From Siderastrea siderea (Eukaryota; Cnidaria; Anthozoa; Scleractinia; Rhizangiidae): a DNA stretch of 64,000 nucleotides. The notes under the pieces are model-generated. The model ran no database searches and had not been told where the DNA came from. It saw only the letters and a list, made by a program, of their open reading frames with translations. Of the stretch, positions 2,861-63,663 are shown one piece after another. The stretch spans positions 28,558,652 through 28,622,651 of the forward strand of contig OZ034977.1 in assembly GCA_964030785.1 (NCBI GenBank), read 5' to 3'. The position numbers and the translations under genes are program-made. Each line of letters opens with the position of its first letter. The stretch's first letter is position 1.

Positions 2861-3000
2861 CGCTATAAATTTTTTGTGTGGAATAAAACTGCTGAGTTTT
2901 GTATGCATTCCGGTAAACTGTTTCATTCATCCCAATCCGCTACGGCTCACTTTTCAAGTGATAAAGTGTCAGGCATAGCAATATAATAAACTTCTTATTA

Positions 3001-3194
3001 CAGGGTCGTAACGAGGTATGTGGGATCAGGGATCAAAGGGGTGGGATCGGGGATCAGAAGGGTGGGATCTAGGACCACAGCCCTGGGATCAGGAATCACA
3101 GACCATGGGATCGGGATCAGCAGTTTCTTATAGGGATCAGGGACCGTACAAAAATGGGATCAGCGATGAAAAAACATACCTCGTTACCACCCTG
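3001..3194. mobile_element. MITE with GGGATCAGG minisatellite core
   Basis: The 194-bp element has 21-bp terminal inverted repeats starting CAGGGTCGTAACGAGG on the left and CAGGGTGGTAACGAGG on the right (one mismatch). It is flanked by TTATTA at 2995-3000 and 3195-3200, which fits a target duplication. The interior is an irregular minisatellite of GGGATCAGGGATC-like units. The open frame across it is a by-product of the repeat. Confidence 0.7.
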
Positions 3195-3306
3195 TTATTA
3201 ACTCTCGCTAGCTCGGGACCGTACTAGGAGAATATTGCCCTCAGTCTTTCTTGTACGACCTCGGGCAATATTCTCCCAGTACGGCCCTCGCGTTCAGTTA
3301 ATAAGA
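3195..3306. repeat. Palindromic hairpin element
   Basis: Two arms of about 46 bp are inverted copies: TTATTAACTCTCGC...AATATTGCCCTC and GGGCAATATTCTC...AGTTAATAAG, with a short loop near 3245-3260. It abuts the preceding MITE. Probably a tiny fold-back MITE. Confidence 0.6.
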
Positions 3307-4988
3307 ATTAAGTAACACACTGGACATTCGCTGGGTTGTCTGAACTAGCCCCACAACTTCCTCCAACTATTTCCGAATACCCACACAAAGCCATGGTAGT
3401 TTATGAGGTTTGACAGACTGGTGGCGTTCCAAACAGTTCAGCCCACGTGCAAAATTTGTGTCGGGATTTTTTGTCACGAGGCATGTTTGTTACATCAGGA
3501 TTGTGGAAGTATTTCGCAACTTCAGGTATAATGACCGGTAACTTTATTTGGCTCTTATTTTTCGTTGGTTAAGAACTTTGAGATAATTTTACATTCTACA
3601 GTACTAATGCTATAAGGACGGGTTTGAATTTTAAAACAATTCATTGCACTAGCAGCAAAGTTTTAGACATCTCTTTTGTTTCTCGTCCATTCCTGTGCAT
3701 TGGAGAGTCGCTGCTGACAGCTGTTCGCATTTACCTGGCCATGTGGTTTTGTAATCTAAGACCACTGTGTATTGCGTGACAGTATATCCATCACTTACCC
3801 AAAAATGTTCGACGGTTGTCATCAGTTGTCATGGGCGGCTAGTAGAAATCTCGTCATTTCTTCACAGAAAATGGTTATTAAGGTACGATTTGCTACATAG
3901 ATGGTTAGGTAATGCTTTACTGGTTCTCGTTGGTATTTTTACTTTAGAAACAAGGAAGGTAAAACAAGTTTCTTGTGAAAAACAAATGTTTTAAATTTAT
4001 GCAAATTTGCCGCTATTAATCACTAACAACCATAGTTTCCCTTGGCCAAAAAAACGTATTTGCGAGCGAAAACCTGTCCTGTTTTCGGCTGATGACTTTA
4101 TTTGAGGTTCTATTAATTAGTAAGTACCAAACATTGTGAAACTTTTCTTTAAAAAATGGAATTAGCGCGTGTTATTTGAAAACGCTGGTCATTACTTCCC
4201 CGCCTGTCAAGGTCAAAAGGTCCTCTTCGCCTGAAAAATAGGGTGTAGATAAAGCGCTCCCAAAATTTACCATTTCATTTACCCAAAAATTTATTTCATC
4301 AAATCGTAGAGGAAAGATTGCTTATTCCAACAAGTGTAGCCTCGGCAGCGAAAGCCATATACCAGAGTGCCTTTTTTGGTCCTGAATTTCGCCATTTTTT
4401 AGCGTGCGACTATGCCGCTCGAAACGGTTAAATTTTAAAAACTGTTAAAAATTCTGCTCTCGATCGAATTCAAATTTGACAAAACAATCATGACAAGGGA
4501 ATATCCTACTTATACTACATGGCTTTGATATTGATATTTCTGTCTTCACAATTCAAGACGAGCGGTTGATTTAAGTGACACTTTCAAGTCGTTTTTACTC
4601 GCTCCCGAGCCATCGGAATGATAAAGTCGTCGTAACGGTAAAATACCTACCGAAATAAACTGAAACTTAGATTTTTATAAATGGTTTGGGAAGACCTTTA
4701 TTGTGACAAAGTTTGGCAATTTTCGATTTTTCTATCTTGCATGGTCCTAGGTGAAAGTTACGGATAGCCGTCTTAAATACTTTAAATTAAAAGACAAGAA
4801 CACACGAAGGTAACATTCATCAGACTAATATGCGCATGCGTCTTATATAAGACAGTACCGCTCTTAAGTACACGTACCACAAGCTTTACAGCACTAAAAA
4901 GAAAACCACGTCCAACAAAACATGTCTCAACAACTCGCCGACGACAACAACCCAAATTTCTTGGCTTGATAGATAGCCATTTTTTAAC
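3307..4988. other. Non-coding, nothing recognised
   Basis: No recognised exon, repeat end or RNA. It may be upstream sequence or the first intron of the CUB/Ig gene; I searched for a signal-peptide exon with a phase-1 donor and found none convincing. Confidence 0.35.
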
Positions 4989-5036
4989 CATGGTGCTCCG
5001 CAGGCGCGGCTTCGCCCACGCGGAGCTCCGCTAAAA
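4989..5036. repeat. GC-rich palindromic repeat end (GCGGAGCTCCGC)
   Basis: A GC-rich island in AT-rich DNA: GGTGCTCCGCAGGCGCGG, then CGCGGAGCTCCGCTAAAA. In reverse complement it resembles the start of the 2.1-kb repeat family at 13350 and 45967 (TAGCGGAGCCTGCGGGC). Probably a solo end or a relative of that family. Confidence 0.5.
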
Positions 5037-5429
5037 ATTGTGCCAAGCAAAAATCTTGGTGATTTGGGTGGTTCGGTTTCCTCTTGTTAACCTACCAACG
5101 AGAAGCCGAGTTTTGGACGCTGCACGTGTAGTGCGTGAACAGCTACATGACCTAATTTGCCAGCGGCGCCCACGTGTGGAATGCTGAGGCTTACTTACTG
5201 CACGTTTTATTTTGTGTATCGAAAATTCTTTACGTGTCTGGAAATGCAACAGACCAAGGATCTCGCATCCTATCCATTGGAGCCGTTTCCTCATATCATC
5301 TTGTTATCTTCTCCATAAAGGAAAACAACTGCCTTAAACGTCAATGTTTTCTCCTGGTAGTTACCCAACTAGAAAATTTTCCCCTTGAATTCCCAGGGTA
5401 CATGTAACCATTATGAAAGGATAAGGATA

Positions 5430-5710
5430 GAGTCGCACTCGGGCCAAGGAGGTTCACACGGCCGAAGCTTATCCTGGTTTCCGTAGCATGAAGCAACTGA
5501 GAGAATTGCTCCTCCCCCCCTGGATTGGTAGTCCATCGCAGGGTTACCAGCTCCCAGCATTATGTCGCCGGTACCCATTCATATACCTGGGTGAAGAGAG
5601 ACAATGTGGGGCAAAGTACCTTTATCTAAGGAAACAACACGATGGTAGGGACTGGGCGTCGAACCACCGACCACCACTACACAACCGCGCCCTTAGAAGG
5701 TTAATGAAAA
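5430..5710 (-). mobile_element. Coral-type SINE (tRNA-derived)
   Basis: The block containing GCTTATCCTGGTTTCCGTAG, CTAGTCCATCGCAGGGTTAC-like sequence and CGCCGGTACCCATTCATA matches from memory a dispersed SINE of stony corals. The right end (GGGCGTCGAACCACCGACC) looks like the reverse complement of a B-box-bearing tRNA-like head, so the element reads on the minus strand. No coding capacity. The family name is not asserted. Confidence 0.6.
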
Positions 5711-6036
5711 CCCACCTATGCTTACATAGGGTGGTATAACCACGGCTAATGAAACAGTTCTGTTTGTAGCGGAGAGGATTGTGGTTACACCTAAATAACC
5801 TTTGCTGAAAATTAAGCCCACAGATCACACAAGAAGAAAAAAAAGGACAAAAGAATAACTCAAGCAAACCAACCAATACTATCAACAAGAATAATACTTC
5901 TTGATTTTTGAAAATAAATTGGGAAAGAAGATAGCTAGTTTGACTGAAGTTTAGAAATTGTACTTTGCAGTTACATTGATACATTTACACTGTTGCACGC
6001 AGAAGAAATTAAGGTCATGCATTTATATATTGATAG

Positions 6037-6184
6037 ATTGTGGCTCAGTGGTAAACGATACACTGAAAAGTCCTGGATACCCATTTGCCTACTACGGAAG
6101 TATCAACTGCAATTACTCAGTTCCAATTCCACAAGGCATGGCGATGAAAATTATCTTCCATAATTTTGTCTTGACGTGCAGCGG
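6037..6184 (+). CDS. CUB-domain exon, first half
   Basis: A 148-bp internal exon. The acceptor (TATATTGATAG) precedes codons reading (D)CGSVVNDTLKSPGYP, then YYGSINCNYSVP, then MKIIFHNFVLTCSG; the donor is GG|GTAAGT. The pattern of a cysteine followed by SPGYP, NC-Y and an aliphatic strand is the N-terminal half of a CUB domain, an extracellular beta-sandwich used for protein or carbohydrate binding. It splices in frame (phase 2) to 7515, and the two exons give 106 codons, the usual CUB size. Entry phase is 1, so at least one upstream exon, probably the signal peptide, is missing. The domain and splice sites are visible; secretion is inferred. Confidence 0.8.
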
Positions 6185-7514: not shown

Positions 7515-7684
7515 GGCGTATTTAAACATTTCCAACGACTACAATGAGGTATTTGGTGTGTACTGTGGCTGGCTCTATGACAAAGAAGCTTTATATGTAT
7601 CTGGGAACTACACAGTTTTAACATTCCAATCATACTCCTATGTATGGAGCATTTTCTATTTCACTTTTGCTACTGTTCCACTTG
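7515..7684 (+). CDS. CUB-domain exon, second half
   Basis: A 170-bp exon with acceptor TTTTAATTATAG and donor CTTG|GTAAGT. Entered in phase 2 from 6184 it reads GAYLNISNDYNEVFGVYCG, then LYVSGNYTVLTFQSYSYV and FYFTFATVPL. YCG, SGNYTVLTF and the terminal FYFTF strand are typical of the C-terminal half of a CUB domain. NDY and NYT are possible N-glycosylation contexts. It ends in phase 1 and splices in frame to 8308. Confidence 0.8.
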
Positions 7685-8307: not shown

Positions 8308-8547
8308 AACCCAAGCTAAATGTGTTGAAGCTATCTCCTGCCGTGCGCTCATGTCCTGGTTATGAAACTTCATGGTCAGTCACTGGGCCTCTTCCCATAT
8401 ATACAGCGGTAACACACAACTCCAAAGTATTGTTTAATACAACAGATACCACTGGAAGATTCACGTTAGATAATGACGGAAACTACACTTTCGTGGCCAC
8501 CAACAGGTTTGGAACTGACGTCAAAAGGTTTTCAGCCGTTGTCACTG
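8308..8547 (+). CDS. Ig-like domain exon
   Basis: A 240-bp phase-1/phase-1 exon with a strong acceptor (ACAATTTTTTCCTATAG) and donor CACTG|GTAAGA. The product reads EPKLNVLKLSPAVRSCPGYE, then SWSVTGPLPIYTAV, NSKVLFNTTDTTGRF and DNDGNYTFVATNRFGTD. The Cys-Trp spacing and GNYTFVATNRFGTD follow the Ig fold, but the second canonical cysteine is replaced by Phe, so no standard disulfide forms. Symmetric phase 1 is typical of shuffled extracellular modules. Next to a CUB domain this suggests an adhesion or recognition protein. I recall similar multi-copy CUB-Ig proteins in corals but cannot verify it here. Confidence 0.75.
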
Positions 8548-10207: not shown

Positions 10208-10335
10208 AGTGTCAATCTCAATGTACTTATCAACGGTCAGATCGTTTTGGGGAGAGGAACATGCTTTCCTGCTGGAATGTAACGTCAATAGTAGACGTTA
10301 CTACATGTGCTCTGGTGTATACAACAGCTATGTAA
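10208..10335 (+). CDS. Probable last exon, Cys-containing module
   Basis: An acceptor TTTACTTTTTAG is followed in the phase set by the preceding exon by (E)CQSQCTYQRSD, then NMLSCWNVTSIVDVTTCAL and YTTAM, with a TAA stop at 10333-10335. Four cysteines and an N-V-T glycosylation site suit an extracellular module. The same TAA lies in a good donor context (CTAT|GTAAGA), so the exon might instead continue to exons beyond; none is recognisable downstream. An AATAAA at 10760-10765 could serve as a poly(A) signal if this is terminal. Confidence 0.55.
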
Positions 10336-10935: not shown

Positions 10936-12805
10936 TGTCTCTAAAACCTGGAACACCCCGGAACACCCCGGAACATCCCCGGAACACCCCCGGAACACCC
11001 CGGAACACCCCGGAACAACCCCGGAACACCCCTGGAACATCCCATAATACCCTGGAACACCCTCGAAACAGATAGGAACACCCCCAGGACACCAAAATAG
11101 TGGTCAGCGGTCAGACCGCTCACAAATTGACTACGCCGTAAACCTCCGAAGATTCCAAATTCTTCAGAAGACTTTTGCGGATCACCCTGAGTTTTCCAAG
11201 CATTTACAAGAATGCTTCGGAATATTTTTGAAGCTTTTGAGAACAGCGAAAGAACCAATATTTAATGAAACAGTATATTATACACGTGTCCTTCATATTA
11301 ACAAACTTACGATTTTTAGTGATATGAAAAAGGGGACAGTTAAATTATTAATTCTGCATTGATATTTCTCGTGCGAAGTTTGGATTATCACGCTCAGAAA
11401 ACAGGTTTGACCTCAAGGACATAACAAAGCCTAATAATAGAGTGTCACGCAATGTAATTAGGTCATTATTCCGAGGTCACACAATCGTCATCGTTTTATC
11501 ACCACAGGCGCATGGAAAATGTTTGCCCGCCGGTTCGTTACGCTAATATACACCTAATTAAAAAACAAAAAAACAAAAACCATTTCATATAAAAATGAAA
11601 AATAAATAAAAGAGAGAAATAGGAATAGATTAGGCATGCAAACTACATTCAAGGATTCGCTCTGACGAAGAGCAATTTTTTTTGAGCGTTTAAAAAAAGG
11701 CGTTCACGAGCGTTCACATTTTGAGCCTTTAAAAACGCTCAAAATGTGAGCTTTTAGATGGCCAATCACCTTTTATCAACTCAGTTTATATTAGTTTGAA
11801 GTATCATACCGCATTGCATGAGTGCTTCGGGAATATTCAAATCCGAGTTTCTATGTCTAATAAATTCCCACCTCACAGCTTTCTCTTTTTATTTTTAAAT
11901 GACAACGTTTTTGCAATTGGGCCTGTATATATTTTTGGTTAACAAAAGAGCGTAGCTCGAAGATAAATGAGTAGCAGAAATGTGCGCCTGCAAAAAAGTA
12001 CTTACCATAAGTTTGTAGAGGTATGCAAGGGCTTATAATGTGGGATGTCACAATGTAATCCGGGAGCAAAAGGAGTTTACACTCTTATAGCAAGAAAAGA
12101 AACAAGTATTTTATTTACTGTCACAACCCGATCTAGTTAGACTTTAAGAGAAAAAAAAATCAATAAACAAAAAAGGAAAATATCAACGATGAGAGTACAT
12201 ACCACATTTTCCTGAACTTTGCAAAGTTCAAAGTTAGTGGATACATAATGTTTTACATTTTTTTAGTGGTCTTGAACGTGAAAAGCACTTTGCGTGCAAA
12301 ATCTGTCACGCAATGCCCAAGGGTAAGTTATCGCGACCATGACGTGTTGTATGGTGAATTGAATTATTATCCGGGATGCCCACCCCCAGAAATTCACTTA
12401 TATCCATGACATAACATCTGTTTGTCGAGAGTTATAACGCAAATCTCGCATGAGTTACAACAATTTCAATAATTGAATTGAAATATTCAAAATCAAACAC
12501 ACCAAATGAATGTTATTTTAGTCATTAAATTCGATGCTAGATAACAAGCTTCGGAAATCTTCGGGTGATCCGCAAAACTCTTCGAAAATCTTCGTTAAAC
12601 TTTGGAGATCCTCGGGCCAGTCTACACGTGAGCAGTCTGACCGCTGACCACTTCTTTTGGTGTTCAAGGGTGTTCCTGGCTGTATTGAGGGTATTCCGGG
12701 GCATTATGGGATGTTTCAGGGTGTTCCGAGGGTGTTCCAAGGGTGTTCCTGGGGTGTTCCAGGGTGTTCCGGGTGTGTTCCGGGGTGTTCCGGGTTTTAC
12801 AGACA
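10936..12805. mobile_element. 1.9-kb fold-back element with GGAACACCCC arms
   Basis: The ends TGTCTCTAAAACCTGG and (inverted) TGTCTGTAAAACCCGG begin inverted arms of about 270 bp. Each arm starts with about 14 tandem GGAACACCCC-like decamers (10953-11090 and, inverted, 12660-12798). Each then has a unique part including GTGGTCAGCGGTCAGACCGC and GCGGATCACCC. The 1.3-kb interior (about 11225-12540) has no coding sequence that I recognise. No target duplication is evident. Probably a non-autonomous DNA transposon; open frames over the arms only reflect the decamers. Confidence 0.7.
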
Positions 12806-34969: not shown

Positions 34970-35377
34970 TACGCTCATAAAGTCCACGTGTTAATCAAAA
35001 CTTACCTTTATAGTGTTGGATAATTTTCTCTTGGTAGCCTAGATAATCAAAAAGCGTGAAAAGGTATTTTAAGGGGAATAAAAAAACTGAGCAGATCGCC
35101 ATAAGACTTGTATGGAGAAAGAACACAATAAGCGACCGTGACAGACGAATGTACTCATACTGACCTCTGTTAATCCTTCAGCCATCATCAAGTTTGTCCA
35201 ATCTCATTGATGAAAATCGCTTCTCTAGGCTTCTCTAGCTTTATACAGTGGTACACAAAATGATTCGTTCAAATGGAGTCCCTATGCCGTTTAGTCGACG
35301 CACCCACGTGCCCGAGAACAGACAGATATAGTACACTTGTCATATTAATTTGGACGTCAAATTGACGTGTATGTTTA

Positions 35378-36230
35378 AAATTCAAGATTCTGCATGTCAA
35401 ATCTTGAACTTTCAAGAATCTGCACGTTTAATCTTGAAACTTCAAGATTCTGTGTGACAAATCTTGAAATTTCAAGATTCTGCATGTCAAGTGTTGAAAT
35501 TTCACGATTATGCATGCCAAATCTTGAAATTTCAAGATTCTGTATGTCAAATCTTAAACTTTCAAGATTCTGCATGTCAAATCTTGAAATTTCACGATTC
35601 TGCATGCCAAATCTTGAAATTTCAAGATTCTGTATGTCAAATCTTAAACTTTCAAGATTCTGCATGTCAAATCTTGAAATTTCAATATTTGACATGCAGA
35701 ATATTGAAATTTCAATATTTGACATGCAGAATATTGAAATTTCAATATTCTGCATGTCAAATCTTGAAATTTCAAGATTTGTCATGCAGAATATTGAAAT
35801 TTCAAGATTTGACATGCAGAATCTTGAAATTTCAATATTTGACATGCAGAATATTGAAATTTCAATATTTGACATGCAGAATCTTGAAATTTCAATATTC
35901 TGCATGTCAGATCTTGAAATTTCAATATTCTGCATGACAAATATTGAAATTTCAAGATTTGTCATGCAGAATATTGAAATTTCAAGATTTGACATGCAGA
36001 ATATTGAAATTTCAATATTTGACATGCAGAATATTGAAATTTCAATATTCTGCATGTCAAATCTTGAATTGTCAATATTTGTTATGCAGAATCTTGAAAT
36101 TTCAATATTTGACATGCAGAATATTGAAATTTCAATATTTGACATGCAGAATCTTGAAATTTCAATATTCGGCATGTCAAATCTTGAAATTTCAATATTC
36201 TGCATGAAAAATATTGAAATTTCAAGATTT
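35378..36230. repeat. 30-bp palindromic minisatellite, about 28 units
   Basis: Each unit is an 18-bp palindrome ATCTTGAAATTTCAAGAT (or the ATATT variant of either half) plus a 12-bp linker. The linker is TCTGCATGTCAA in some units and its reverse complement TTGACATGCAGA in others. The left third uses only the first orientation; the right two thirds are mostly the second, with reversals. Because 30 is divisible by 3 and units lack stops, both strands have long frames repeating a 10-residue motif (NLEISRFCMS-like). These are artefacts of the array. Confidence 0.9.
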
Positions 36231-37203
36231 GGCAACTCACCTGTAATTAACTCACCGGATAACTCACCATACGTAACTTACGCCCTTGTTAAACCCCTTT
36301 GTAGAAAGAGTCGTGACCGTAAAAACTCCTTTGTGGAGGCTAACATGTAATCCAACAACTGAAAGTACTGGCTATCTGTTGGAAGTTTTTTTTTTCTTTT
36401 AATTTCCCACCAAGTTTTTATTCCTGTATTTGTATCTCAACTCACATGACCGAAATTGAATACGTGACTCTCTCTGTCAGTGTGGTGTGACACTTGCGGG
36501 TTATTGCAGAGGTCACTTGTCTTTCCGCTTATCCCTCTCCGCGATGAGTTTAAAATATCTTCGCTCAATCAGGAAACTGAAAATTCGTTTGGTTACAGTT
36601 TGGAATGTTTTTCTGTTGTATCGTTGCTTTTTCGGTTGGCAAGGTAAGCGGTATAATACGTCGTATTACAGTGTTTTCGATGTTATCTTGGTTCAGTTGA
36701 ATGAGTGGATTCCTGTCTTGTTGAAATGCCGTTAAAAATCTGCTCTGTTTTAACATAATGAGACTCAGCCAACTCAAGAAAGCAGAACCTGCTTTCAAAG
36801 ATCAGAAAAACATTGTGCGTGTATGTTTAACTAATTGTGAGCTTATCTTAAACGACCTTTGTAATTGTTAGCAGTATTTCAGGAATTAAATCTGTAATTT
36901 GCATATAATTCTACCCGCTCAGATCACTAAACAGTAAAAATTTACTAACGGAGAAATATTTGATTCCCAAAGCTGTAACTTTCCTGGTTAAAAGTACAAT
37001 AACAGAGCTTTCTTTCTGTGTAGCCTTAATTATTGAATGATACATACCAGATGCGGTTTAAAGCGGCCGAAGTTGGCCTTCATTTTACCTTGTGATAAAC
37101 GAGGTTAGGAGCGGCTCGATAAGAACGCCGCTTGAAAATGTTGAAAACCAACGATTGGCAAATTTATTACACAGTTTTGAATTACAAAGGTTAAATAATG
37201 TTC

Positions 37204-37591
37204 GTGCTTTGTTTCGTTTTAAAAGAATCTTTTTTTACGCTGTCACCAGCTTCATAAAGTTGAATGAAAACTTGACCCGTTTAGAAACCCTAAAACCGCC
37301 ATTTTATGCATTTTTGAACTTTTTCAATTTTCGTCCGTTAAATAACTCGTTGGAACATTTGATTATTTTTTCTTGAATTAGCTTACCCAAAGGGATGTTT
37401 TGGCAAAATAAAAAAAAATTGGTTTTTTGTGAGTGTCTTTCGATTCTCGATATTCTCAGAAAATTGCTCTTAAGGCCTGGATTTTTCACGCCTTTTTTGT
37501 AACAGTTGTTGATATGAATAGCAGTTAGAATAAAATAAAACGGCAGACGGTTTTGTTAATATTAGAAAGGTTTTCAATTATGTGTTGAAAT
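37204..37591. other. Non-coding, nothing recognised
   Basis: Short frames only; no family signature. Confidence 0.35.
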
Positions 37592-37825
37592 TGATTCGCG
37601 TTGCTTTTGTTTTTCCTTTTTCATACGCTGTCATTAGTTTGAAAACTCTCGGAACTTTCTCGTTAATTGAGGTTCGTTACTTGATCACATATATATTTTT
37701 TCCGTGATCTGATTGACGTTGTTTGCGCTTGCTGTGATTGGCCAGAGTGATAACCTTGGTTTTAGTTTTACGACAATCAATTGTCAATCGCTCCTTTGCA
37801 TTATAAGAATCCTTCTGGAAGCCCA
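37592..37825 (+). repeat. Orphan copy of the LRR-array intron
   Basis: From GTGTTGAAATTGATTCGCG through CCAGAGTGATAACC and TTTTAGTTTTACGACAATC to AAGAATCCTTCTGGAAGC the sequence is colinear with the introns of the LRR cassette array (57720 onward), about 85% alike by eye. No LRR exon flanks it. Either a decayed cassette left 20 kb from the array, or a dispersed repeat that the array introns also contain. Confidence 0.65.
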
Positions 37826-38809
37826 GACCTCCCCCTAATTAAATTAATGTTGCATGAAAAAGTAGTGTTTTTGGTTAATTTTCAATAATTTTGTTACATA
37901 CATATACATACATGAACTTTATTTTAACACGAATTTTAGAGTAGCCAAAAAAAGCTAATTTTTCGGTGTACTTTGCATCATTTCTCCACCAAACTTGGTA
38001 ATTTAATATGGGACTTTGTGCCACACAATTATGACGTCATATTATTCTCTAAAATAAAAGTTTAGAATTTCTAAATTTGTTTCTAGTATTTTAGAAAGAA
38101 CACATCAAAAGGAGTTGTATGTTGAAAACAGTTTCTCGATGTGACAAATAATGCATGTGTTATGGCATTTTAATTAGATTTTGAAAATTTCGCAGTGTCA
38201 AAATAGGGTTTCCCGCTTGTGTAATACGTTTAAATTTGAGTGTTGTTTAGTCGCGTCACCGACACCATTTAAGTTGCGGATAAGATATTTCAAGAGTCGT
38301 TGTCAGAGAAAACCAGGCAAAATCCAAAAAACCTCAAAGGAAGGGGGTCAGCGAAAGTACTTCATACTCACATTATTTATAGCTTAGGTGGACTTAGAGA
38401 TAGCTCTTTATCTTTTCTGGTGTTGGAGATACAAGCCTCACTTTCTATGACCCCCGTAGGCGCATTTTTACACGTAAATTTGGCCAAGTTTCTCAAGTCG
38501 GTAAAAACCTTAGAATTAATCGATTGAAATTCCAATTTTCTGTGTGGTGCAAACCAGCATAGAAGTATTTGTTTATGCCCGGAAGAGCGGCAAATAACCA
38601 AAGGCCAGTGTAGACTTTACGTTTTGAGACCCATATACTTTGTATCTGTTAAAAAGCACGAAATAGGCCATTTTTCAGTTGATCTAGAACACACAACTAT
38701 AGCTTTAAAAAACCGTGCATAGCAAAAAGATACTCTCCCACCTTCCCTCTTTCAAAACCAATAAAGATCGTTTTGGGTCATTGAAACAGCAAGATCCAGG
38801 AATACTCAC
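37826..38809. other. Non-coding, nothing recognised
   Basis: Could be intron of the candidate minus-strand gene starting at 38928. No second exon identified; AATAAA at about 38759 lies on the plus strand. Confidence 0.3.
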
Positions 38810-41954: not shown

Positions 41955-42545
41955 ACAAATGGCTAATTTGCAAAAACTCCAAAACCAGGGCAGCACGCAT
42001 CATAACTGGTGCCTCTTATCTGAAAAGATCTTGTGATCTTCTTGGAGAATTAGGGTGGTTCAATTTGGAGGCGATGAGACAGCGTCAAAAGGCGATCTTG
42101 ATGTTTAAAGTATTAAACGGCCTGACCCCGCGTATTTGTCTGAAATGTTCACACATAACACCTCTTTTCAGAATTCAGTCTGGACTGCGATCTTTCAAAA
42201 TGAACCATGAGCTTCCAAAATGTCGCACAAACTATTACAAAATTAGTTTTGCTTTTTCTGGAGCTAAGCTATGGAATGATTTGCCTCCAAGTGTTAAAGA
42301 TGAAAGTTCCCTTAAAAGGTTTGTGTGTAAACTAGACTCCTACACTACCGGCACCAACAATGCCTTAAAGTAATTTCATATAATACTTATATCGTAGTAT
42401 ATTGTGATTAATTCATTAAATAAATTAATTAGTTAAATGTAATTAGTTTTACTGAGATAATATCGCGTACGGATTTTATATAAAACAAATTTTAATATGT
42501 TGTATAGTTTAATTTGATAAAATTCCGTAGGAAAATAAAAGATTC
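41955..42545 (+). pseudogene. LINE chain member 1: CR1/L2-like C-terminus and tail
   Basis: RAARIITGASYLKRSCDLLG, KAILMFKVLNGLTP, NYYKISFAFSGAKLWNDLPP and a stop at 42373 give the C-terminal end of a CR1/L2-like RT, 5-prime truncated. The 3-prime UTR ends AAATTCCGTAGGAAAATAAAAG then TTCTATCC, leading straight into the (TCCC/TCCA)n array. Confidence 0.75.
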
Positions 42546-42709
42546 TATCCATCTATCCCTCCCTCCCTCCCTCCCTCCCTCCCTCCCTCCATCCATCCAT
42601 CCATCCATCCATCCATCCATCCATCCATCCATCCATCCATCCATCCATCCATCCATCCATCCATCCATCCATCCATCCATCCCTCCCTCCCTCCCTCCCT
42701 CCCTCCCTT
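42546..42709. repeat. (TCCC)n-(TCCA)n-(TCCC)n array
   Basis: About 160 bp of tetranucleotides linking LINE members 1 and 2. Its translation gives the repeated HPSI residues at the start of the plus frame at 42514; they are not part of the protein. Confidence 0.95.
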
Positions 42710-45165
42710 CAACATTAATTGACTTATTCATCGCAAACAATCCGGAGAGTATAGTACATTCTGGTGTATATCCACTCTCTATAAGTGATCATTACCTTAT
42801 TTATGCAGCCAGAAAAGTGGGTATCCCAAGAAAGAATCCTAGATATGTCGAGACCAGAAATTTCAAGCTGTTTAATGCTAATTCCTTTATATCAGACCTC
42901 ACAAATGCGAATTGGCCTCAAACTGACAACTCGATGAATATAAATGAATCCTGGGAAAATTGGAAGCGCGTTTTCTTACACATCGTCGATAAACATGCAC
43001 CAAAACGGGTCATAAGAGTACGCAACAAACCAACACCTTGGTTGGATTCCAACCTTAAACAGCAAATGATGACCAGAAATTCTCTGAAGCGAAGAGCGAT
43101 AAAAACGGGCTCAGAAAACTATTGGAATTGTTACAGAAACATGCGAAACAAAGTTAACTATGCTGTGAAGTGCGCTAAATCGAACTATTATCGCAAAGAA
43201 TTGCACTACAATCTTGGCGACCCCAAGAATACATGGAAAGTATTAAATGATCTAATGGGCAAAAAATCTGCAGTTACTGAAATTAGCGAACTTGTTACTT
43301 CGTCTTCGCAAAACGGCTTAAGCAATGCTAAAGATATCGCAGATCACTTTAATAAACATTTTACCCAGATTGGCCCAGATCTTGCAGCAAACGTTCCTAC
43401 ATCTACGACAAACCCTGAAGACTCGTTGAAGCGTCACTCGACCACTTTTCAGCTGAGTGAAATCAAGTCTTCCAGAGTTTTGAAACTGTTATTAAAACTT
43501 GATGTCTCCAAAGCAACAGGTCTCGATCAAATTTCGAACAAGATTCTTAAATTAGCTGGCCCGGTTATTTGTAATCAACTAACGGACTTGTTTAATCTAT
43601 CCGTTAAAGTGGAGTATTCCCAAATGATTGGAAACTAGCTAAAGTTTCCCCTATCCATAAAACCGGTGAACGTAACGATGCAAATAACTATAGACCAATA
43701 TCAGTCTTACCAATTATAGCTAGAATTTTTGAAAAACTTATTTACGAACAGCTATATGATTATTTATGTAAGAACGATATTTTAGATTCGCGACAATCAG
43801 GTTTTAGATCACTCCACTCGACTGTAACTGCACTACTCGACCTTACAAACCAATGGTGTTTCAATATAGACAGGGGCATGATTAGTGGAGTTGTATTTCT
43901 AGATCTCAAGAAGGCCTTTGATACGGTAAATCAAAGCCTTCTTTTGACAAAATTGAAACATGTTGGAGTGCGTGGACATTCGTTAGAGTGGTTCAATTCA
44001 TATCTAACAAATAGATATCAGTTCGTATACATCAACGGGATTCTCTCTGAACAAGACTTGATCAAATGTGGAGTCCCACAGGGGTCCATACTTGGACCAC
44101 TTCTATTTTTGATATACATTAATGATCTCAGCAACATTACCGATTTTGCTACTACAAGAATGTATGCAGATGACACTAATATGACCTTCACTGCTTGCAG
44201 TGTCGAAGGACTACGACATGAAATGAACGCAGACATCGAAAAACTCAAACAGTGGCTTTGCGCAAACAAACTCACTCTGAACATATTAAAAACCGAATAC
44301 ATGTTAATTGGTTCAAGACAAAGAATTGCGACAGTCACTGAAAGTCTTGATCTCTCTATAAACGGCATATCATTAAAAAAAGTTAATTGCAGTAAATGCC
44401 TAGGTGTAGAACTAGATGAATTTCTTTCATGGGATTCCCACATCACAAGTGTCTGTAAGAAGGTGTCATCGGGCATAGGTGTTATAAAAAAGATCAAGCC
44501 TTTTATTCCATCGCGCAGTTTAATAAACATTTACCAGTCAATCGTTGAACCATATTTCGACTATTGTAGTATTGTTTGGAATGGCATTAGTGAGGGCCTG
44601 GCCGAAAAACTCCAAAAGTTACAACATCGCGCAGCACGAATTATCACAGGCTCACATTACATGGCACCTACAAAAGACATGTTAGAAAAACTCGGATGGT
44701 CAAACCTTAAGGAGAGAAGAAATAAACAGAAAGCTCTGATGATGTTCAAAACTATTAACGGCATGACACCAGTTTACTTAAAGGATATGTTCTCAAAGAA
44801 CATTGGCACGTCATGTTATAACCTTCGAACATCAAGAGAAGACATCGCTTTACCGAGAGCCAGAACCGACTATTACAGAAACAGTTTCGCCTTCACAGGG
44901 GCGAAAATTTGGAATTCGCTTCCAAATGATCTGAAATGTGAACGGTCGCTCGAATCCTTTAAAAACAAGCTCAAATCTCTCAACCTCTGTATCGATTTTT
45001 AAATACATCTATATTTCCTATTTTCAAAAAAAAATTTGTAATACATGATACTTAAAGTTAGTTAGTTTAGAATTTTAAAACACTATTTGTAAATATTGCA
45101 CGGCTTTTGTGTAAACCAAAGATACTATTGTAATTTTGACAAAACCACCGTGGATAAATAAAGTT
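42710..45165 (+). pseudogene. LINE chain member 2: CR1/L2-like element with full RT
   Basis: Begins inside the endonuclease ([21 protein letters not shown]), continues through the linker to 43615, then needs a one-base shift (VKVEYSQ versus [13 protein letters not shown]) to enter the RT. RT blocks: YRPISVLPIIARIFEKLIY, QSGFRSLHST, VVFLDLKKAFDTV, GVPQGSILGPLLFLIYINDL, MYADD and NKLTLNILKTEYMLIGS, then the C-terminal FAFTGAKIWNSLP, stop at 45000-45002. The catalytic Asp residues are present. Tail ATAAATAAAGTTTTCTATC. Inactive as written because of 5-prime truncation and the frameshift, but otherwise young-looking. Confidence 0.85.
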
Positions 45166-54310: not shown

Positions 54311-54317
54311 CTACGTC

Positions 54318-54628
54318 TTACCTAAAAGCCAAGTTTGACATCGGTCAAGGCACCGGGAAGAAACTAGACCCCGATGTTGTCACCAAAGGCATGCGTCGAG
54401 CTCGAGGGCCCAAATGGTGAGAGGTTGTTTGCCCAGCAAATTTCATCCTTCTTCTCTCGCTTGGCAGCGAAAGCGTGTCAGCAAAAGCTGTAGGAGACGG
54501 AGCAAGATGTGCTTGCCGTAGAAGAGCAAGTGGACTTCTCTACAGCCAGAGACACCGTGCTTTCCTCCCCTCATATCACCCACCTTATTGTTGTCGATCA
54601 GTACGATCTGTGTGCCTTAGTTTAAAGC
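54318..54628 (+). pseudogene. Inverted second copy of the FSRLAAK gene end
   Basis: YLKAKFDIGQGTGKKLDPD and GMRRARGPKW, a stop, then in another frame FAQQISSFFSRLAAKACQQ, a stop, ETEQDVLAVEEQVDFSTARD and VVDQYDLCALV. It mirrors the 3-prime part of 53164-53450 but keeps codons (KAKFDIGQ) that the other copy lost, so the two decayed separately after duplication. Confidence 0.65.
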
Positions 54629-56975: not shown

Positions 56976-57612
56976 ACAACAATTTTTTAAGATACAGATT
57001 GCACGTGGACATTAGATCTTTTTATATGTAGACATCGCCCCAAAAAATAGCGAGTGGGGGAGGGGTGAGATAGTGAATAGCATGTGGACTTCCAAGTTCG
57101 TTTTTGAAAACCTGATTAGTTTTCAAAGAATTACATTTAGAACCCACAGAAAGCTCATATTCGATCATAGATCTGGTTAGATTTTCCGTGTTACTGTAAC
57201 ATCACGAAGCGAAGAAATGGGACAAAAAAGGCAAAGAAAAAGCGCCATGTCTTTATAAATGGTTTCACAACATGGGGTGCAATCCAGCTGTCAAGGAAAT
57301 TCTCTTGACATGTCCAAGCTCCAGCAAAAAAAATTTCCCCGGCAGAATCGGTCACATTTCCTAACTTCTACGTTTTGCCGACGGAAAATATCGGCAAGCA
57401 ACAGTAGCCACCATAGTTCCATTTCGTAGGTTTCGTAGGTTTTTACACAAGAAGTGATTGGCAGCGGCAAATTGGAAAACAAACCTAGGGGAGTCGGAAG
57501 GAATACCTGGTCGCGATTTCCGGTGTCGGTGATGAACTCCTTTGTTTGCGAAACAGATAAAATCGATGTTTGCAGGCGCTTTCCCAAAAAAACTTCGGCT
57601 TCGTACGTATTT
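56976..57612. other. Upstream flank of the LRR array
   Basis: No signal-peptide or LRR N-terminal cap exon recognised. Frames on both strands near 57290-57630 lack family signatures. Repeated TTTCGTAGG at about 57423-57440 resembles the acceptor motif used in the array. Confidence 0.35.
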
Positions 57613-57636
57613 GACTTCAAATGCTATCACATCCCT
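57613..57636 (+). pseudogene. Truncated LRR exon (cassette 0)
   Basis: GACTTCAAATGCTATCACAT, then CCCT matches the first third of the array exons (SNAITSL) and stops abruptly 11 bp before the acceptor of cassette 1, suggesting an unequal exchange at the array edge. Confidence 0.6.
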
Positions 57637-57647
57637 TTGTTTTGTAG

Positions 57648-57719
57648 CGCTTTGCCTTCAAATGCTATCATATTCCTACCTCAGGGAGTGTTTGCCAAGC
57701 TGACTAATCTGTTTCACCT
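57648..57719 (+). CDS. LRR exon 1 of tandem cassette array
   Basis: 72 bp, acceptor TTTGTTTTGTAG, donor CT|GTGAGT, phase 2 at both ends, so any number of such exons can be joined in frame. It encodes ALPSNAIIFLPQ then GVFAKLTNLFHL: one 24-residue LRR of the extracellular type (LxxNxIxxLPxxxFxxLTNL). Concave-face pair FH. This is the most diverged cassette (A-L-P-S for D-L-S-S and I-I-F for I-T-S), and its upstream intron is unlike the others. Confidence 0.8.
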
Positions 57720-58062
57720 GTGAGTGTTGAAATTAATTCGCGTTGGTTGTGGTTTTTCTTTGTCATACGATGTCACTAGTTTGAAAACTCGTCGATCTTT
57801 CTCGGTTATTGAGAATCGTTACGTGTCACATGTATTTTCTCTGTGATCTGATTGGCGTTGTTTGTGCTTACTGTGATTGGCCAGAGTAATTATTTTGGTT
57901 TTAGTTTTACGACAGTCAATTGTCAATCGCTCTATTGCATTGTAAGAATCCTTCTGGAAGCTCATGAGACTAAACACATTTCTGTGCAGGGATAAGACCG
58001 TGAAAAGGAAACTGTAATCCAACACTGAAAAATAAGAATTAAAAAAATTATTGTGTTCGTAG

Positions 58063-58134
58063 GGACTTGTCTTCAAATACTATCACATCCCTACCTCAGG
58101 GAGTGTTTGCCAAGCTGACTAATCTGGAGTGGCT
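58063..58134 (+). CDS. LRR exon 2 of tandem cassette array
   Basis: 72-bp phase-2 exon after TTGTGTTCGTAG, donor GTGAGT. Encodes DLSSNTITSLPQ, then GVFAKLTNLEWL. Concave-face pair EW, differing from exon 1 at all six bases, while the intron between exons 2 and 3 (342 bp) differs from that between 1 and 2 at only about 8 places by eye. Confidence 0.85.
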
Positions 58135-58476
58135 GTGAGTGTTGAAATTAATTCGCGTTGGTTGTGGTTTTTCTTTGTCATACGATGTCACTAGTTTGAA
58201 AACTCGCCGATCTTTCTCGGTTACTGAGAATCGTTACGTGTCACATGTATTTTCTCTGTGATCTGATTGGCGTTGTTTGTGCTTACTGTGATTGGCCAGA
58301 GTAATTATTTTGGTTTTAGTTTTACGACACTCAATTGTCAATCGCTCTATTGCATTGTAAGAATCCTTCTGGAAGCTCATGAGACTGAACACATTTCTGT
58401 GCAGGGATAAGACCGTGAAAAGGAAACCGTAATCCAACACTGAAAACTAAGAATTAAAAAATTATTGTGTTCGTAG

Positions 58477-58548
58477 GAACTTGTCTTCAAATGCTATCAC
58501 ATCCCTACCTCAGGAATTGTTTGCCAAGCTGACTAGTCTGCCTGTCCT
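58477..58548 (+). CDS. LRR exon 3 of tandem cassette array
   Basis: Phase-2 72-bp exon encoding NLSSNAITSLPQ, then ELFAKLTSLPVL. Concave pair PV, six of six bases different from exon 2. LTS instead of LTN is a one-base change. Confidence 0.85.
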
Positions 58549-58891
58549 GTGAGTGTTGAAATTAATTCGCGTTAGTTGTGGTTTTTCTTTGTCATACGAT
58601 GTCACTAGTTTGAAAACTCGCCGATCTTTCTCGGTTATTGAGAATCGTTACGTGTCACATGTATTTTCTCTGTGATCTGATTGGCGTTGTTTGTGCTTAC
58701 TGTGATTGGCCAGAGTAATTATTTTGGTTTTAGTTTTACGACACTCAATTGTCAATCGCTCTATTGAATTGTAAGAATCCTTCTGGAAGCTCATGAGACT
58801 GAACACATTTCTGTGCAGGGATAAGACCGTGAAAAGGAAACCGTAATCCAACACTGAAAAATAAGAATTAAAAAAATTATTGTGTTCGTAG

Positions 58892-58963
58892 GAACTTGTC
58901 TTCAAATGCTATCACATCCCTACCTCAGGAATTGTTTGCCAAGCTGACTAATCTGCCTGTCCT
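58892..58963 (+). CDS. LRR exon 4 of tandem cassette array
   Basis: Phase-2 72-bp exon encoding NLSSNAITSLPQ, then ELFAKLTNLPVL. Concave pair PV, identical to exon 3 except LTN. Exons 3 and 4 look like the most recent duplicates. Confidence 0.85.
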
Positions 58964-59305
58964 GTGAGTGTTGAAATTAATTCGCGTTGGTTGTGGTTTT
59001 TCTTTGTCATACGATGTCACTAGTTTGAAAACTCGCCGATCTTTCTCGGTTATTGAGAATCGTTGCTTCATCACATGTATTTTCTCCGTGGTCTGGTTGG
59101 CGTTGTTTGTGCTTACTGTGATTGGCCAGAGTAATTATTTTGGTTTTAGTTTTACGCCCCTCCTTGTCAATCGCTTTATCGCATTATAAGAATCCTTCTG
59201 GAAGCTCATGAGACTGAACACATTTCTGCGTAGGGATAAGACCGTGAAAAGGAAACCGTAATCCAACACTGAAAAATAAGAATTAAAAAATTATTGTGTT
59301 CGTAG

Positions 59306-59377
59306 GGACTTGTCTTCAAATGCTATCACATCCCTACCTGAAGGAATGTTTGCCAAGCTGACTAATCTGTTTCACCT
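59306..59377 (+). CDS. LRR exon 5 of tandem cassette array
   Basis: Phase-2 72-bp exon encoding DLSSNAITSLPE, then GMFAKLTNLFHL. Concave pair FH, as in exon 1, with a unique EGM segment. The following intron is enlarged to 991 bp by a palindromic MITE and belongs to a distinct intron subtype. Confidence 0.85.
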
Positions 59378-60368
59378 GTGAGTGTTGAAATTAATTCGCG
59401 TTGGTTGTGGTTTTTCTTTAACATACGATGTCATTAGTTTGAAAACTCGCGGAACTTTCTCGGTTATTAAGATTGGTTACGTGGTCACTTGACTTTTTTT
59501 CGTGGTCTGATTGGCATTGTTTGCACTAGCGTTTAATTTGGACAGAGTAATTACTTTGGTTTTCGTTTTGCGACACTCAACTGTCAATCGTTCCATTGTA
59601 ATATAAGAATCCTGAAATCCAATTAGACTGAAAAAATTTCTGCGCGGGGATGTGACGGTGAAAAGGAAACCGTAATCCAACAGTTCAAAGCACGCCGGGC
59701 CAGCAGAGGGCACGAAGCTGCACGCTCGGAAAAACCTTTGCGTCTTTTATCCGATAGAGCTCAAACTTTGCACAATGATAGAACTTTTTATTCCAAACAA
59801 TCGTATCGTTTTTGTTTTTTCATTTTAACGGTTTTTGGCGGGAAAATGACGTCACAGTGCTAAAGGCAAATTTTCAATTGTCTCTTATGGCACAAAAAGT
59901 ATATGATTCTGAAAGAACTCATTGAGATAAAGTGAAATGCGAAGAAATTATTGAAAAAGCTCGATCCGTCTTGAAGATATAAAGATCTGAATTTTATAAA
60001 TGTTCTAAAAATAGTAACAAAATGGCGGAAAATTCAAACTTCCGAACTTTATATCTTCAAGACGGATCGAGCTTTTTCAATAATTTCTTCGCATTTCACT
60101 TTATCTCAATGAGTTCTTTCAGAATCATATACTTTTTGTGCCATAAGAGACAATTGAAAATTTGCCTTTAGCACTGTGACGTCATTCCCCGCCAAAAACC
60201 GTTAAAATGAAAAAACAAAAACGATACGATTGTTTGGAATAAAAAGTTCTATCATTGTGCAAAGTTTGAGCTCTATCGGATAAAAGACGCAAAAGTTTTT
60301 CCGAGCGTGCAGCTTCGTGCCCTCTGCTGGCCCGGCGTGAAGTAAGAAAATAATGGTTGTGTTCGTAG
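59378..60368 (+). other. LRR intron 5 (subtype B, enlarged)
   Basis: Compared with other introns it has CATTAGTTTGAAAACTCGCG and a CACTTGAC/TTTTTTTCG block, features shared only with intron 7 (60820-61156). It also holds the 649-bp MITE at 59691-60339. Confidence 0.75.
59691..60339. mobile_element. Near-perfect palindromic MITE in LRR intron 5
   Basis: Inverted arms of about 300 bp, nearly identical (CACGCCGGGCCAGCAGAGGG at each end), around a ~55-bp centre. Flanked by AAG (59688-59690, 60340-60342). Intron 7 near 61127 has the uninterrupted TTCAAAGTAAG. CAC ends and a 3-bp target fit a CACTA-type element. Arm identity implies young age or gene conversion. Confidence 0.85.
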
Positions 60369-60440
60369 GAACTTGTCTTCAAATGCTATCACATCCCTAC
60401 CTCAGGAATTGTTTGCCAAGGTGACTAATCTGGTGGACCT
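60369..60440 (+). CDS. LRR exon 6 of tandem cassette array
   Basis: Phase-2 72-bp exon encoding NLSSNAITSLPQ, then ELFAKVTNLVDL. Concave pair VD. A Leu-to-Val change (KVTN) keeps the hydrophobic core. The following intron is 307 bp, with a deletion near its 3-prime part. Confidence 0.85.
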
Positions 60441-60747
60441 GTGAGTGTTGAAATTAATTCGCGTTGGTTGTGGTTTTTCTTTGTCATACGATGTCACTAG
60501 TTTGAAAACTCGCAAATCTTTTCCGGTTATTGAGAATCGTTACTTTATCACATGTATTTTCTGCGTGATCTGATTGGCGTTGTTTGTGCTTACTGTGATT
60601 GGCCAGAGTAATTATTTTGGTTTTAGTTCTACGACACTCAATTGTCAATCGCTCTATTGCATTATAAGAATCCTTCTGGAAGCTGAAGTGAAAAGGAAAG
60701 CGTAATCCAACACTAAACTAAGAATTAAAAAATTATTGTGTTCGTAG

Positions 60748-60819
60748 GGACTTGTCTTCAAATGCTATCACATCCCTACCTCAGGAATTGTTTGCCAAGC
60801 TGACTAATCTGTTGGACCT
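60748..60819 (+). CDS. LRR exon 7 of tandem cassette array
   Basis: Phase-2 72-bp exon encoding DLSSNAITSLPQ, then ELFAKLTNLLDL. Concave pair LD. Followed by a subtype-B intron of 337 bp. Confidence 0.85.
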
Positions 60820-61156
60820 GTGAGTGTTGAAATTAATTCGCCGTTGGTTGTGGTTTTTCTTTATCATACGATGTCATTAGTTTGAAAACTCGCGGAACTT
60901 TCTCGGTTGTTAAGATTCGTTACTTGGTCACTTGACTTTTTTTCGTAGTCTGATTGGCGTTGTTTCCACTAGCTGTTATTGGACAGAGTAATTACTTTGG
61001 TTTTCGTTTTGCGACACTCAACTGTCAATCGTTCCATTGTTCTATGAGAATCCTGGAATCCCATTAGACTAAAAAATTTCTGCGCGGGGATGTGACGGTG
61101 AAAAGGAAACCGTAATCCAACAGTTCAAAGTAAGAAAATAATGATTGTGTTCGTAG

Positions 61157-61228
61157 GGACTTGTCTTCAAATGCCATCACATCCCTACCTCAGGAATTGT
61201 TTGCCAAGCTCACTAATCTGCATTTCCT
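61157..61228 (+). CDS. LRR exon 8 of tandem cassette array
   Basis: Phase-2 72-bp exon encoding DLSSNAITSLPQ, then ELFAKLTNLHFL. Concave pair HF, five of six bases different from exon 7. Last complete cassette in the window. Confidence 0.85.
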
Positions 61229-61570
61229 GTGAGTGTTGAAATTAATTCGCGTTGGTTGTGGTTTTTCTTTGTCATACGATGTCACTAGTTTGAAAACTCG
61301 CCGATCTTTCTCGGTTATTGAGAATCGTTACTTGATCACATGTATTTTCTCCGTGGTCTGATTGGCGTTGTTTGTGCTTACTGTGATTAGCCAGAGTTAT
61401 TAATTTGGTTTTGTTTTACGAGACTCAATTGTCAATCGCTTTATTGCATTATAAGACTCCTTTTGGAATCCCATGAGACTAAAAACATTTCTGTGCGAGG
61501 ATATGACCGTGGGAAAGAAAACCGAAATGAAACTTTACAACGCAAGAAACACAATTATTGTGTTTTGTAG

Positions 61571-61590
61571 GTACTTGTCTTCAAATGCTA
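61571..61590 (+). pseudogene. LRR exon 9, cut by a retroelement tail
   Basis: After a normal acceptor (TGTTTTGTAG) the exon reads YLSSNA and is then broken by (AGGTA)n of an inserted LINE. The remainder is not found before the window end. Confidence 0.75.
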
Positions 61591-62130: not shown

Positions 62131-63663
62131 ATGGCGAGCGAAGAAGCAAAGGAAAAATTGGAGCGATTACGATCGATCCGGGGAGCGCAACGTGGCATTG
62201 TAACTAAAAACGTAAATAAAGCCAACGCCATTTTTGGAGATGAAGCAGCTCAAGCATATATCTCTAGCGAACAAGTTCAACAATTGGAGGTCATAAGTCG
62301 ATTGCTGGAAGCAAAACTGAAGACTCTCGAGGAAATCGATCAACAAGTTCTATCCTTGTGCATCCTAGAAGAAATTACACAGGAGATCGAGGAATCGGAG
62401 AAGTATGTGGAGAAGGCTATCAACTGCCAGAAGAAAATAAGCGATGTTTCTCGGAAGACCACTGGAGAGCCACAAGAAAGTAACCCACTCGCAGAGTTAA
62501 TTCAAGCGCTACCTGGAACTGCTCAACCAGCGCTTCCTACAAATCAAGTCAAGGCAAAATTGCCGAAACTAATCCTGCCTAAATTTCGTGGTGACGTAAC
62601 AACCTGGACAGGATTTTGGGACTCATACAAGTCCGCGGTCCACGACAACGAAAGTCTTTCGAAAATCGACAAGTTTAATTACCTAAAATCGCTATTGGAA
62701 GGTGCCGCAAGCCGAGCCATTCAAGGGCTTACTCTATCAAGCTCTAATTACGATTCAGCGGTGGAGATCCTAGAACAACGATTTGGAAGACCACAGCAGA
62801 TAATTTCCGCGCACATGGACGAAATCCTAAGAATCCAACCCTGTGCAAGTGATCGTCCATCTTCTCTTCGATTTCTCTACGATAAATTGAGCGTGCACGT
62901 ACGAGGATTATCTTCACTTGGTGTGTCATCAGAACAGTATGGCAGTTTGTTAATACCGATTATCATGTCCAAGCTACCGAACGAAATACGACTAGAAATC
63001 GCGCGGAAATCGACCACTGAAGTATGGAAAATCGAACAATTGTTAGAAACGATCAAAGGGGAAATCGAGGCGAGAGAAGCGAGTGAAGTTGTCAAGACTC
63101 AAGAAGTACATGTGCGAAAACAAAACCCTGGTTCAAATTCTTCTCGAACAATCCCAACAGCGAATACACTGATTTCAACGGAAGGCAAGGAGTTCCGAAT
63201 TCGATGCGTTTATTGCAATGGGGAGCATTATTCAGCCTCCTGCACGAAAATCCGACAATCGAAAGATCGAAGGGACATTCTTCAGAGAGATGGTCGTTGT
63301 TTTATTTGTCTCAAAACTGGCCATAATGCGAGGAACTGTTTTCATACGAAGAAATGCCGACACTGTGATGGAAAACATCACCAATCGATTTGCGCAATGT
63401 CTACGCCTGCGGAAGATCAAAGAAACCCGACCCGAAACGACGCCGCTAGAGAAACGCAAACCGAAAGCGCAACTGTAACCACGACGACAACTGCGAATTC
63501 TGTAACCAAAGGTACTGTGCTGCTTCAAACTGCAAGTTGCATGGCAGTCAACGGATCCAATTTAATTCCTGTACGTGTTCTTTTCGACAACGGAAGCCAA
63601 CGATCATATGTCACAACGAGTTTAACTTCACGCCTTAATTTAGGGGCCGACCATTTAACTCTT
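62131..63663 (+). CDS. BEL/Pao-type gag with zinc knuckles and protease start
   Basis: An open frame from ATG 26 bp after the primer site. N-terminal coiled-coil-like helix (about residues 40-105), then a KLPKLILPKFRGD...FWDSY.SAVH region at about 143-240 (the DUF1759-like gag core of BEL/Pao), three knuckles at about 358-420 (CVYCNGEHYSASC, CFICLKTGHNARNC, CRHCDGKHHQSIC), and at about 480-503 VRVLFDNGSQRSYV, the start of a retropepsin-like domain (DNGS in place of DSG). From 63664 the frame continues by chance into an unrelated repeat, so residues after about 511 are not gag. RT and integrase are absent from the window. Confidence 0.85.

Follow-up and report, generated by a model that had tools for sequence, protein, structure and literature searches.

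A tandem array of one-repeat LRR exons with a hypervariable hexamer in the coral Siderastrea siderea: a candidate germline recognition receptor with CUB and Ig-like exons upstream

Ectodomains of leucine-rich repeats (LRRs) encoded by phase-2 exons of one repeat each are a feature of the LGR receptors, in which the LRR region is not accompanied by CUB or immunoglobulin (Ig) domains. In the variable lymphocyte receptors (VLRs) of lampreys and hagfish, donor cassettes of one to three modules, or fractions of a module, flank an incomplete gene in either orientation, as set out in the accessible portion of PMC3308329. The available parts of the sources on LRR proteins place the x residues of the LxxLxL strand on the concave face, which is the ligand face in VLRs and in the hypervariable NLRs of plants. 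In the fungal proteins HET-D and HET-E, near-identical WD40 repeats are exchanged by unequal crossing-over or conversion, and four codons of the interaction face are under diversifying selection (PMC1805685 and PMC12222747, in the sections available). Repeats that are > 80% identical within a gene are termed high-internal-conservation (HIC) repeats, and PMC12222747 also notes that an LRR NLR of the HIC type has been reported from a sea urchin. Here we describe a locus of the scleractinian coral Siderastrea siderea in a stretch of 64,000 nucleotides (assembly GCA_964030785.1, contig OZ034977.1, positions 28,558,652 to 28,622,651 of the forward strand; hereafter the window), which contains a tandem array of LRR exon cassettes. 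On the sequence evidence presented below, we give a probability of a little under 60% to the reading that this array is the LRR part of an extracellular germline recognition receptor of a scleractinian-coral type, with the architecture CUB - Ig-like - LRRNT - LRR(n), shaped by concerted evolution of its cassettes and by diversifying selection on its binding codons.

The array consists of eight complete cassettes of 72 nucleotides each, arranged head to tail across 57648-61228, with a truncated copy at either edge. The hexamer given for each complete cassette comprises the two whole codons nearest to its donor site:

57599 to 57636, + strand: partial cassette preceding c1 on the 5' side (exon profile E 2.1e-6; unit profile 57586-57636, E 1.4e-6)
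57648 to 57719, + strand: cassette c1, hexamer TTTCAC (FH)
58063 to 58134, + strand: cassette c2, hexamer GAGTGG (EW)
58477 to 58548, + strand: cassette c3, hexamer CCTGTC (PV)
58892 to 58963, + strand: cassette c4, hexamer CCTGTC (PV)
59306 to 59377, + strand: cassette c5, hexamer TTTCAC (FH)
60369 to 60440, + strand: cassette c6, hexamer GTGGAC (VD)
60748 to 60819, + strand: cassette c7, hexamer TTGGAC (LD)
61157 to 61228, + strand: cassette c8, hexamer CATTTC (HF)
61571 to 61590, + strand: cassette c9, cut after 20 nucleotides by sequence beginning (AAGGT)n

All eight complete cassettes are flanked by a TAG acceptor and a CT/GTGAGTG donor, are in phase 2 at both ends, and code for a single 24-residue LRR close to xLSSNAITSLPQxxFAKLTNLxxL. 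This agrees with the initial annotation, which had described eight complete and two truncated 72-bp exons with AG acceptors, GTGAGT donors, phase 2 at both ends and one 24-residue LRR each; the count is borne out by the coordinates and by a unit profile, which at E < 1e-4 recovered the eight cassettes, two partial units (57586-57636 and 61548-61590) and one intron relic (37582-37826). The coding frame is open in all eight cassettes, whereas the other two frames are interrupted by stops in eight and in seven of them. As the phases are symmetric, a cassette can be gained, lost or skipped without disturbing the frame. Successive cassettes start 415, 414, 415, 414, 1063, 379 and 409 nucleotides apart. 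An earlier estimate of ~415-bp spacing stands for the four steps of 414-415 and for the one of 409, and fails for the step of 1063, which is long because a 649-nucleotide foldback insert (59691-60339) sits inside it, and for that of 379, which is short because of a 34-nucleotide gap in the intron. Mean pairwise DNA identity is 92.5% outside the hexamer and 88% (81-99%) over the whole exon; at the protein level the mean is 78% (62-96%) for all eight cassettes and 81% for c2-c8, values that fall on both sides of the 80% mark of HIC repeats. An LRR profile run over both strands of the window found no complete LRR besides those of the array.

In the alignment of the eight units the hexamer stands out as the variable block. 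At 0.607, pairwise diversity in the hexamer far exceeds that of the remaining exon sites (0.075) and of the intron (0.107). Column shuffling, which ignores the relatedness of the cassette copies, produced a six-nucleotide window as diverse as the hexamer in 2 of 100000 trials for the exon and in 4 of 20000 for the whole unit. The cassettes c1, c2 and c3 differ at only 3-5 of 274 intron sites, yet at 6, 4 and 6 of the six hexamer sites. A diversity nearly six times that of the intron is beyond neutral expectation, suggesting that selection, block exchange of old variants, or both are needed. Nonsynonymous and synonymous differences per site (pN and pS) in the hexamer, where sites are few, are 0.670 and 0.321 respectively; a second script that treats paths through stop codons differently gave 0.676 and 0.297. 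Lesser variation is seen at codon 1 (D, N or A) and at codons 12-14 (QGV, QEL or EGM). The hypervariable hexamer, which is the most telling feature of the locus, was absent from the initial annotation. Adenine-targeted mutagenesis of the kind caused by diversity-generating retroelements was rejected by inspection, the hexamer differences not being confined to A.

The c5 and c7 introns differ from each other by 5% and from the other six by 14-18%, and constitute a class of their own. The four-gamete test failed for 58 of 84 informative exon-intron site pairs versus 30 of 378 intron-intron pairs, and we read this conflict between exon and intron histories as a probable trace of recombination within the array. 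The conflict fits crossing-over or gene conversion, and so sustains the earlier proposal that phase-symmetric, near-identical cassettes might vary by unequal crossover. Two further elements bear on the history of the units:

59691 to 60339, no strand assigned: foldback (inverted-repeat) insert of 649 nucleotides in the c5 intron, with near-perfect arms and a 3-nucleotide AAG target duplication
37582 to 37826, + strand: copy of most of the cassette intron, with no recognisable exon (nhmmer E 6.8e-66; alignment)

The c7 intron retains the empty site matching the foldback insert, indicating that these units had already been duplicated when the insert arrived. The distant intron copy could be a relic of the array or a mobile element shared with the intron. 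A possible exon noticed by eye near 37.38 kb (LPKGMF) was dropped; the exon profile did not recover it at E 100.

Searches of the window by tblastn with eleven coral proteins as queries detected CUB, Ig-like and LRRNT-like exons on the + strand, 47-52 kb upstream of the array:

6037 to 6184, + strand: CUB exon a, phase 1 in and 2 out (tblastn with P0182, E 3e-13; splice sites)
7515 to 7684, + strand: CUB exon b, phase 2 in and 1 out (tblastn with P0141, E 2.6e-6)
8308 to 8547, + strand: Ig-like exon, phase 1 in and 1 out (tblastn with P0141, E 3.4e-16; Ig label by motif)
10208 to 10331, + strand: four-cysteine LRRNT-like exon, phase 1 in and 2 out (tblastn with P0036, E 4.8e-4; translation)

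These exons overturn the earlier statement that the window holds no cap exons. All four have ends of splice consensus; their donor phases are 2, 1, 1 and 2, the last of which fits the cassettes, and when the four are joined to the eight cassettes the twelve exons yield 418 residues without a stop. Their order on the + strand is the domain order of proteins from the coral Oculina. Pfam recognised a CUB domain in the joined protein (E 4.5e-8; 33.8 bits against a cut-off of 21.4) and LRR_8 (E 4.3e-49); CUB and LRR families were matched on the 418 residues, with no NACHT, so that the NLR architecture (NACHT/NB-ARC) of the fungal proteins is absent from this part. The four cysteines of the LRRNT-like exon are invariant across the 10 coral rows of the alignment.

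Searching proteins with the joined cassettes yielded 414 matches, of which the best were mostly general LRR proteins, topped by non-coral entries, with Oculina, Stylophora and Acropora entries present among the best 120. In a second search, directed at longer proteins, Oculina patagonica P0121 came first (63% identity, 98% coverage of the array), and seven further Oculina entries were found among the best 120 of 1599 matches. Five of these proteins (P0121, P0141, P0142, P0150 and P0182) start with a hydrophobic leader, recognised by eye, that is followed by a CUB domain; the P0171 model begins within the CUB, and the P0123 and P0124 models lack it. All eight Oculina proteins continue with an Ig-like segment, a four-cysteine segment and then LRRs, the models containing 8-16 regex-matched repeats apiece. 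A search with the N-terminal part returned 8 proteins, all from Scleractinia (four Oculina, three Stylophora and one Desmophyllum); the top two are CUB-only, and the CUB is joined to LRRs in two of the eight (P0243 and P0246). This points to an origin of the window in or close to the stony corals. Stylophora pistillata P0243 matches the CUB-Ig-LRRNT part with 39% identity and 98% coverage. The Oculina patagonica relatives and P0243 are labelled hypothetical or uncharacterized, and a literature search over titles and abstract openings found no coral CUB-Ig-LRR family and no one-LRR exon cassettes with hypervariable codons. In Desmophyllum pertusum P0244, a stretch that looks hydrophobic by eye and a tyrosine-kinase domain come after related CUB repeats; this layout might hint at how such coral receptors signal, or might reflect a merged gene model.

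The structural model of P0121 has a mean predicted local distance difference test score (pLDDT) of 79, with most of the LRR part above 90. In this model the β-strand of the repeat covers positions 23, 24 and 1, suggesting that the hexamer residues lie at the predicted concave ligand-binding strand of the LRR. The most diverse of the 24 repeat positions in P0121 are 22, 23 and 1, so that this set of positions is variable in a second coral gene too. Diversity at positions 1, 22 and 23, expressed as a ratio to that at the rest, is 6.0 in the window, 4.2 in P0121 and 4.3 in P0142, which represents the same gene as P0121; the median is 1.38 for 50 proteins that each carry 6 or more of these repeats, a convenience sample that includes the Oculina proteins and in which homogeneous arrays reach high ratios more easily.

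If the array belongs to a CUB - Ig-like - LRRNT - LRR(n) receptor, its cassettes would be spliced in series after the LRRNT-like exon. Unequal crossing-over and short gene conversion would keep reshuffling them, homogenising exons and introns alike, and diversifying selection would keep the two pre-donor codons, plus codon 1 of the next exon, different; such selection is suggested by the position of these residues at the predicted concave strand. New specificities would then arise through germline change of cassette number, order or hexamer. The pattern of cassette variation suits a recognition receptor, as had been supposed at the outset. A bolder version of the proposal is that conversion below the scale of the exon swaps the six-nucleotide binding block beside the donor, with the rest homogenised, giving rise to colony-specific (possibly isoform-specific or even soma-specific) repertoires for allorecognition or microbe recognition in corals; we offer this as speculation and think it rather doubtful.

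Several observations weigh against the receptor as reconstructed here. The LRRNT-like exon and the array are 47 kb apart, and the interval contains a reverse-transcriptase element, a DUF7869 frame and a satellite. A match on the + strand at 54316-54405 to the last 30 residues of Oculina P0123 (tblastn E 7.7e-6) could mean that another gene lies inside the interval; another part of the P0123 tail matches the - strand at 53910-53695 (E 8.7e-5), and because these neighbouring parts match opposite strands, the tail appears to be a foreign piece, perhaps from a mobile element, fused into that model. Two scans of positions ~1-6030 revealed no convincing signal-peptide exon, which may lie outside the window. 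At the other end, c9 is cut. The high pS of the hexamer leaves room for block exchange without selection on amino acids, and in the framework pN is no lower than pS (0.079 against 0.061). With codons 1 and 12-14 removed, the framework values are 0.041 versus 0.035 for all eight cassettes and 0.024 versus 0.039 for c2-c8, so that purifying selection on the framework is at best weakly suggested. Position 14, which is off the predicted strand, varies as well (0.61), and only three exon sites, each in a variable codon, enter the four-gamete test. Other family members have a weaker concentration of diversity (1.4-2.1, among them P0243 at 1.4, P0182 at 1.6 and P0246 at 1.5). Finally, Pfam at E 0.001 gave no Ig or LRRNT match on the joined protein, nor on any of the six relatives scanned; the names Ig-like and LRRNT-like hence rest on motif, position and a β-rich model.

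As the signal exon and the 3' end are unseen, c9 is broken and the framework lacks a signal of purifying selection, the main rival is that the locus is a family copy in decay or already dead, which was formerly a receptor and has since been split by insertions, with the diversity of the hexamer being a fossil of past selection or only a donor pool. The inserted elements of the 47-kb interval and the intron relic at 37.6 kb are in line with such decay, and so is the Ig-like exon, which by eye lacks two cysteines present in the same segment of P0182. Conversely, splice sites and frame are kept in all 12 exons, the phases chain over the full 418 residues, and stops are confined to the non-coding frames of the cassettes. 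We consider decay unlikely, albeit a serious contender. In the 2.4 kb between the c9 break and the end of the window, and in the window as a whole, tblastn found none of the C-terminal domains of the relatives save the one doubtful piece at 54316-54405; the ephrin-receptor-like cysteine segment from the C-terminal flank of P0150 likewise had no match in the window.

A second alternative is regulated splicing, by skipping or mutually exclusive use of cassettes, which would generate many isoforms per colony. Phase symmetry and near-identical splice sites are compatible with this, and the Oculina models P0141 and P0150 offer a possible instance: they are identical over the 257 residues preceding the repeats and then differ by whole repeats, with P0150 lacking the initial 48 residues of the P0141 repeats, together with one inner repeat, and having one inner repeat that is absent from P0141. 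This indicates that, in gene models at least, the loss of a cassette can leave the frame intact. However, the P0141 model also ends earlier, and the difference could equally represent alternative cassette use or annotation noise, such as two annotators' choices at one locus, or could derive from two near-identical loci. Mutually exclusive use of the Dscam type, with one cassette per transcript, is disfavoured as an earlier proposal by the eight Oculina models, each of which keeps its 8-16 repeats, and a phase-symmetric 72-nucleotide exon provides no frame reason for exclusion. Regulated splicing of this kind seems distinctly unlikely.

Somatic assembly of the VLR kind, with the cassettes serving as a donor pool from which immune cells copy into a receptor, would account for one-LRR cassettes with hypervariability on the strand face, and the replacement of all six hexamer sites inside flanks diverged by ~1% does resemble block replacement. 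Each cassette is nevertheless a whole exon-like unit that has its splice sites, shares the orientation of the gene and is situated behind CUB and Ig-like exons, unlike the VLR donors as portrayed in the accessible portion of PMC3308329; the kinship with VLRs suggested initially is accordingly not upheld, and we regard such assembly as highly improbable. An LGR-type receptor, combining LRRs with a seven-helix G-protein-coupled receptor, is scarcely credible: LGR4 and LGR5 are among the Foldseek matches of the Oculina model, but the scores of SHOC2, TLR3 and designed LRR proteins are equal or higher, pointing to the general LRR fold, and the N-terminus carries CUB and Ig-like segments.

Other features of the window include, within the 47-kb interval, two overlapping frames at 42508-45002, the second of which encodes a reverse transcriptase (Pfam RVT_1), and a satellite at 35377-36231 made up of ~30/90-nucleotide units, the short unit in ~28 copies, with long open frames on both strands. 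A minisatellite of GGAACACCCC-like units is found at 10950-11070, and its reverse complement recurs ~1.6 kb further on, at 12659-12795. Six further frames of the interval scanned for families gave one weak match, below its cut-off, and Rfam at gathering scores gave no matches. Directly after the array, an open frame at 62137-63660 contains DUF1759, which we take to be a BEL/Pao-type region; the longer frame continues through a G-run.

How animals without lymphocytes obtain diverse recognition receptors, and how corals discriminate self, rival colonies and microbes, are open questions. The locus described here is a candidate with a readable code, namely one short variable block per cassette in a near-constant frame, so that repertoire, exchange and selection could be measured from long reads of different colonies. 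If the receptor reading is true, it would extend the combination of concerted evolution and hypervariable binding codons from fungal NLRs to extracellular, exon-encoded LRRs of an animal.

Among the systems compared, the closest are the scleractinian CUB-Ig-LRRNT-LRR proteins (P0121/P0142, P0141/P0150, P0171, P0182 and P0243), which share with the window the domain order and the four LRRNT cysteines; P0123 and P0124 are alike, in models without the CUB. The coral relatives also have 24-residue repeats of the form xLSSNAITxLPxxxFAxLTxLxxL, hypervariable in P0121 at positions 22, 23 and 1, whereas the repeats of the window are more alike, the comparison being at the protein level for Oculina. 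The LGR receptors have the LRR fold in common with the locus, which differs from them in the CUB and Ig-like N-terminus lying in phase upstream; an exon for seven helices was not seen in the window, which ends short of the 3' end of the gene. As in the VLRs, there are an LRRNT cap, 24-residue LRR modules, a cassette logic and a concave-face diversity, here predicted; unlike in the VLRs, the eight complete cassettes are each flanked by an acceptor and a donor, share a single orientation, lie downstream of in-phase cap exons, and have CUB and Ig-like segments in front. The hypervariable plant NLRs resemble the locus in having their diversity at the x positions of LxxLxLxx, according to the available part of PMC8226289. 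The plant proteins differ in being intracellular. One-repeat exon cassettes are, to our knowledge, not a feature of theirs. With the HET-D/HET-E (HNWD) proteins, in so far as the accessible sources describe them, the locus shares near-identical tandem repeats in which a small number of codons are hypervariable and belong to the interaction face, a face here inferred from a model. HET-D and HET-E are, however, intracellular fungal NLRs with a WD40 propeller, whereas the coral locus appears to encode an LRR solenoid of extracellular animal type, in which each repeat occupies its own exon and the introns of ~300-340 nucleotides are homogenised too.

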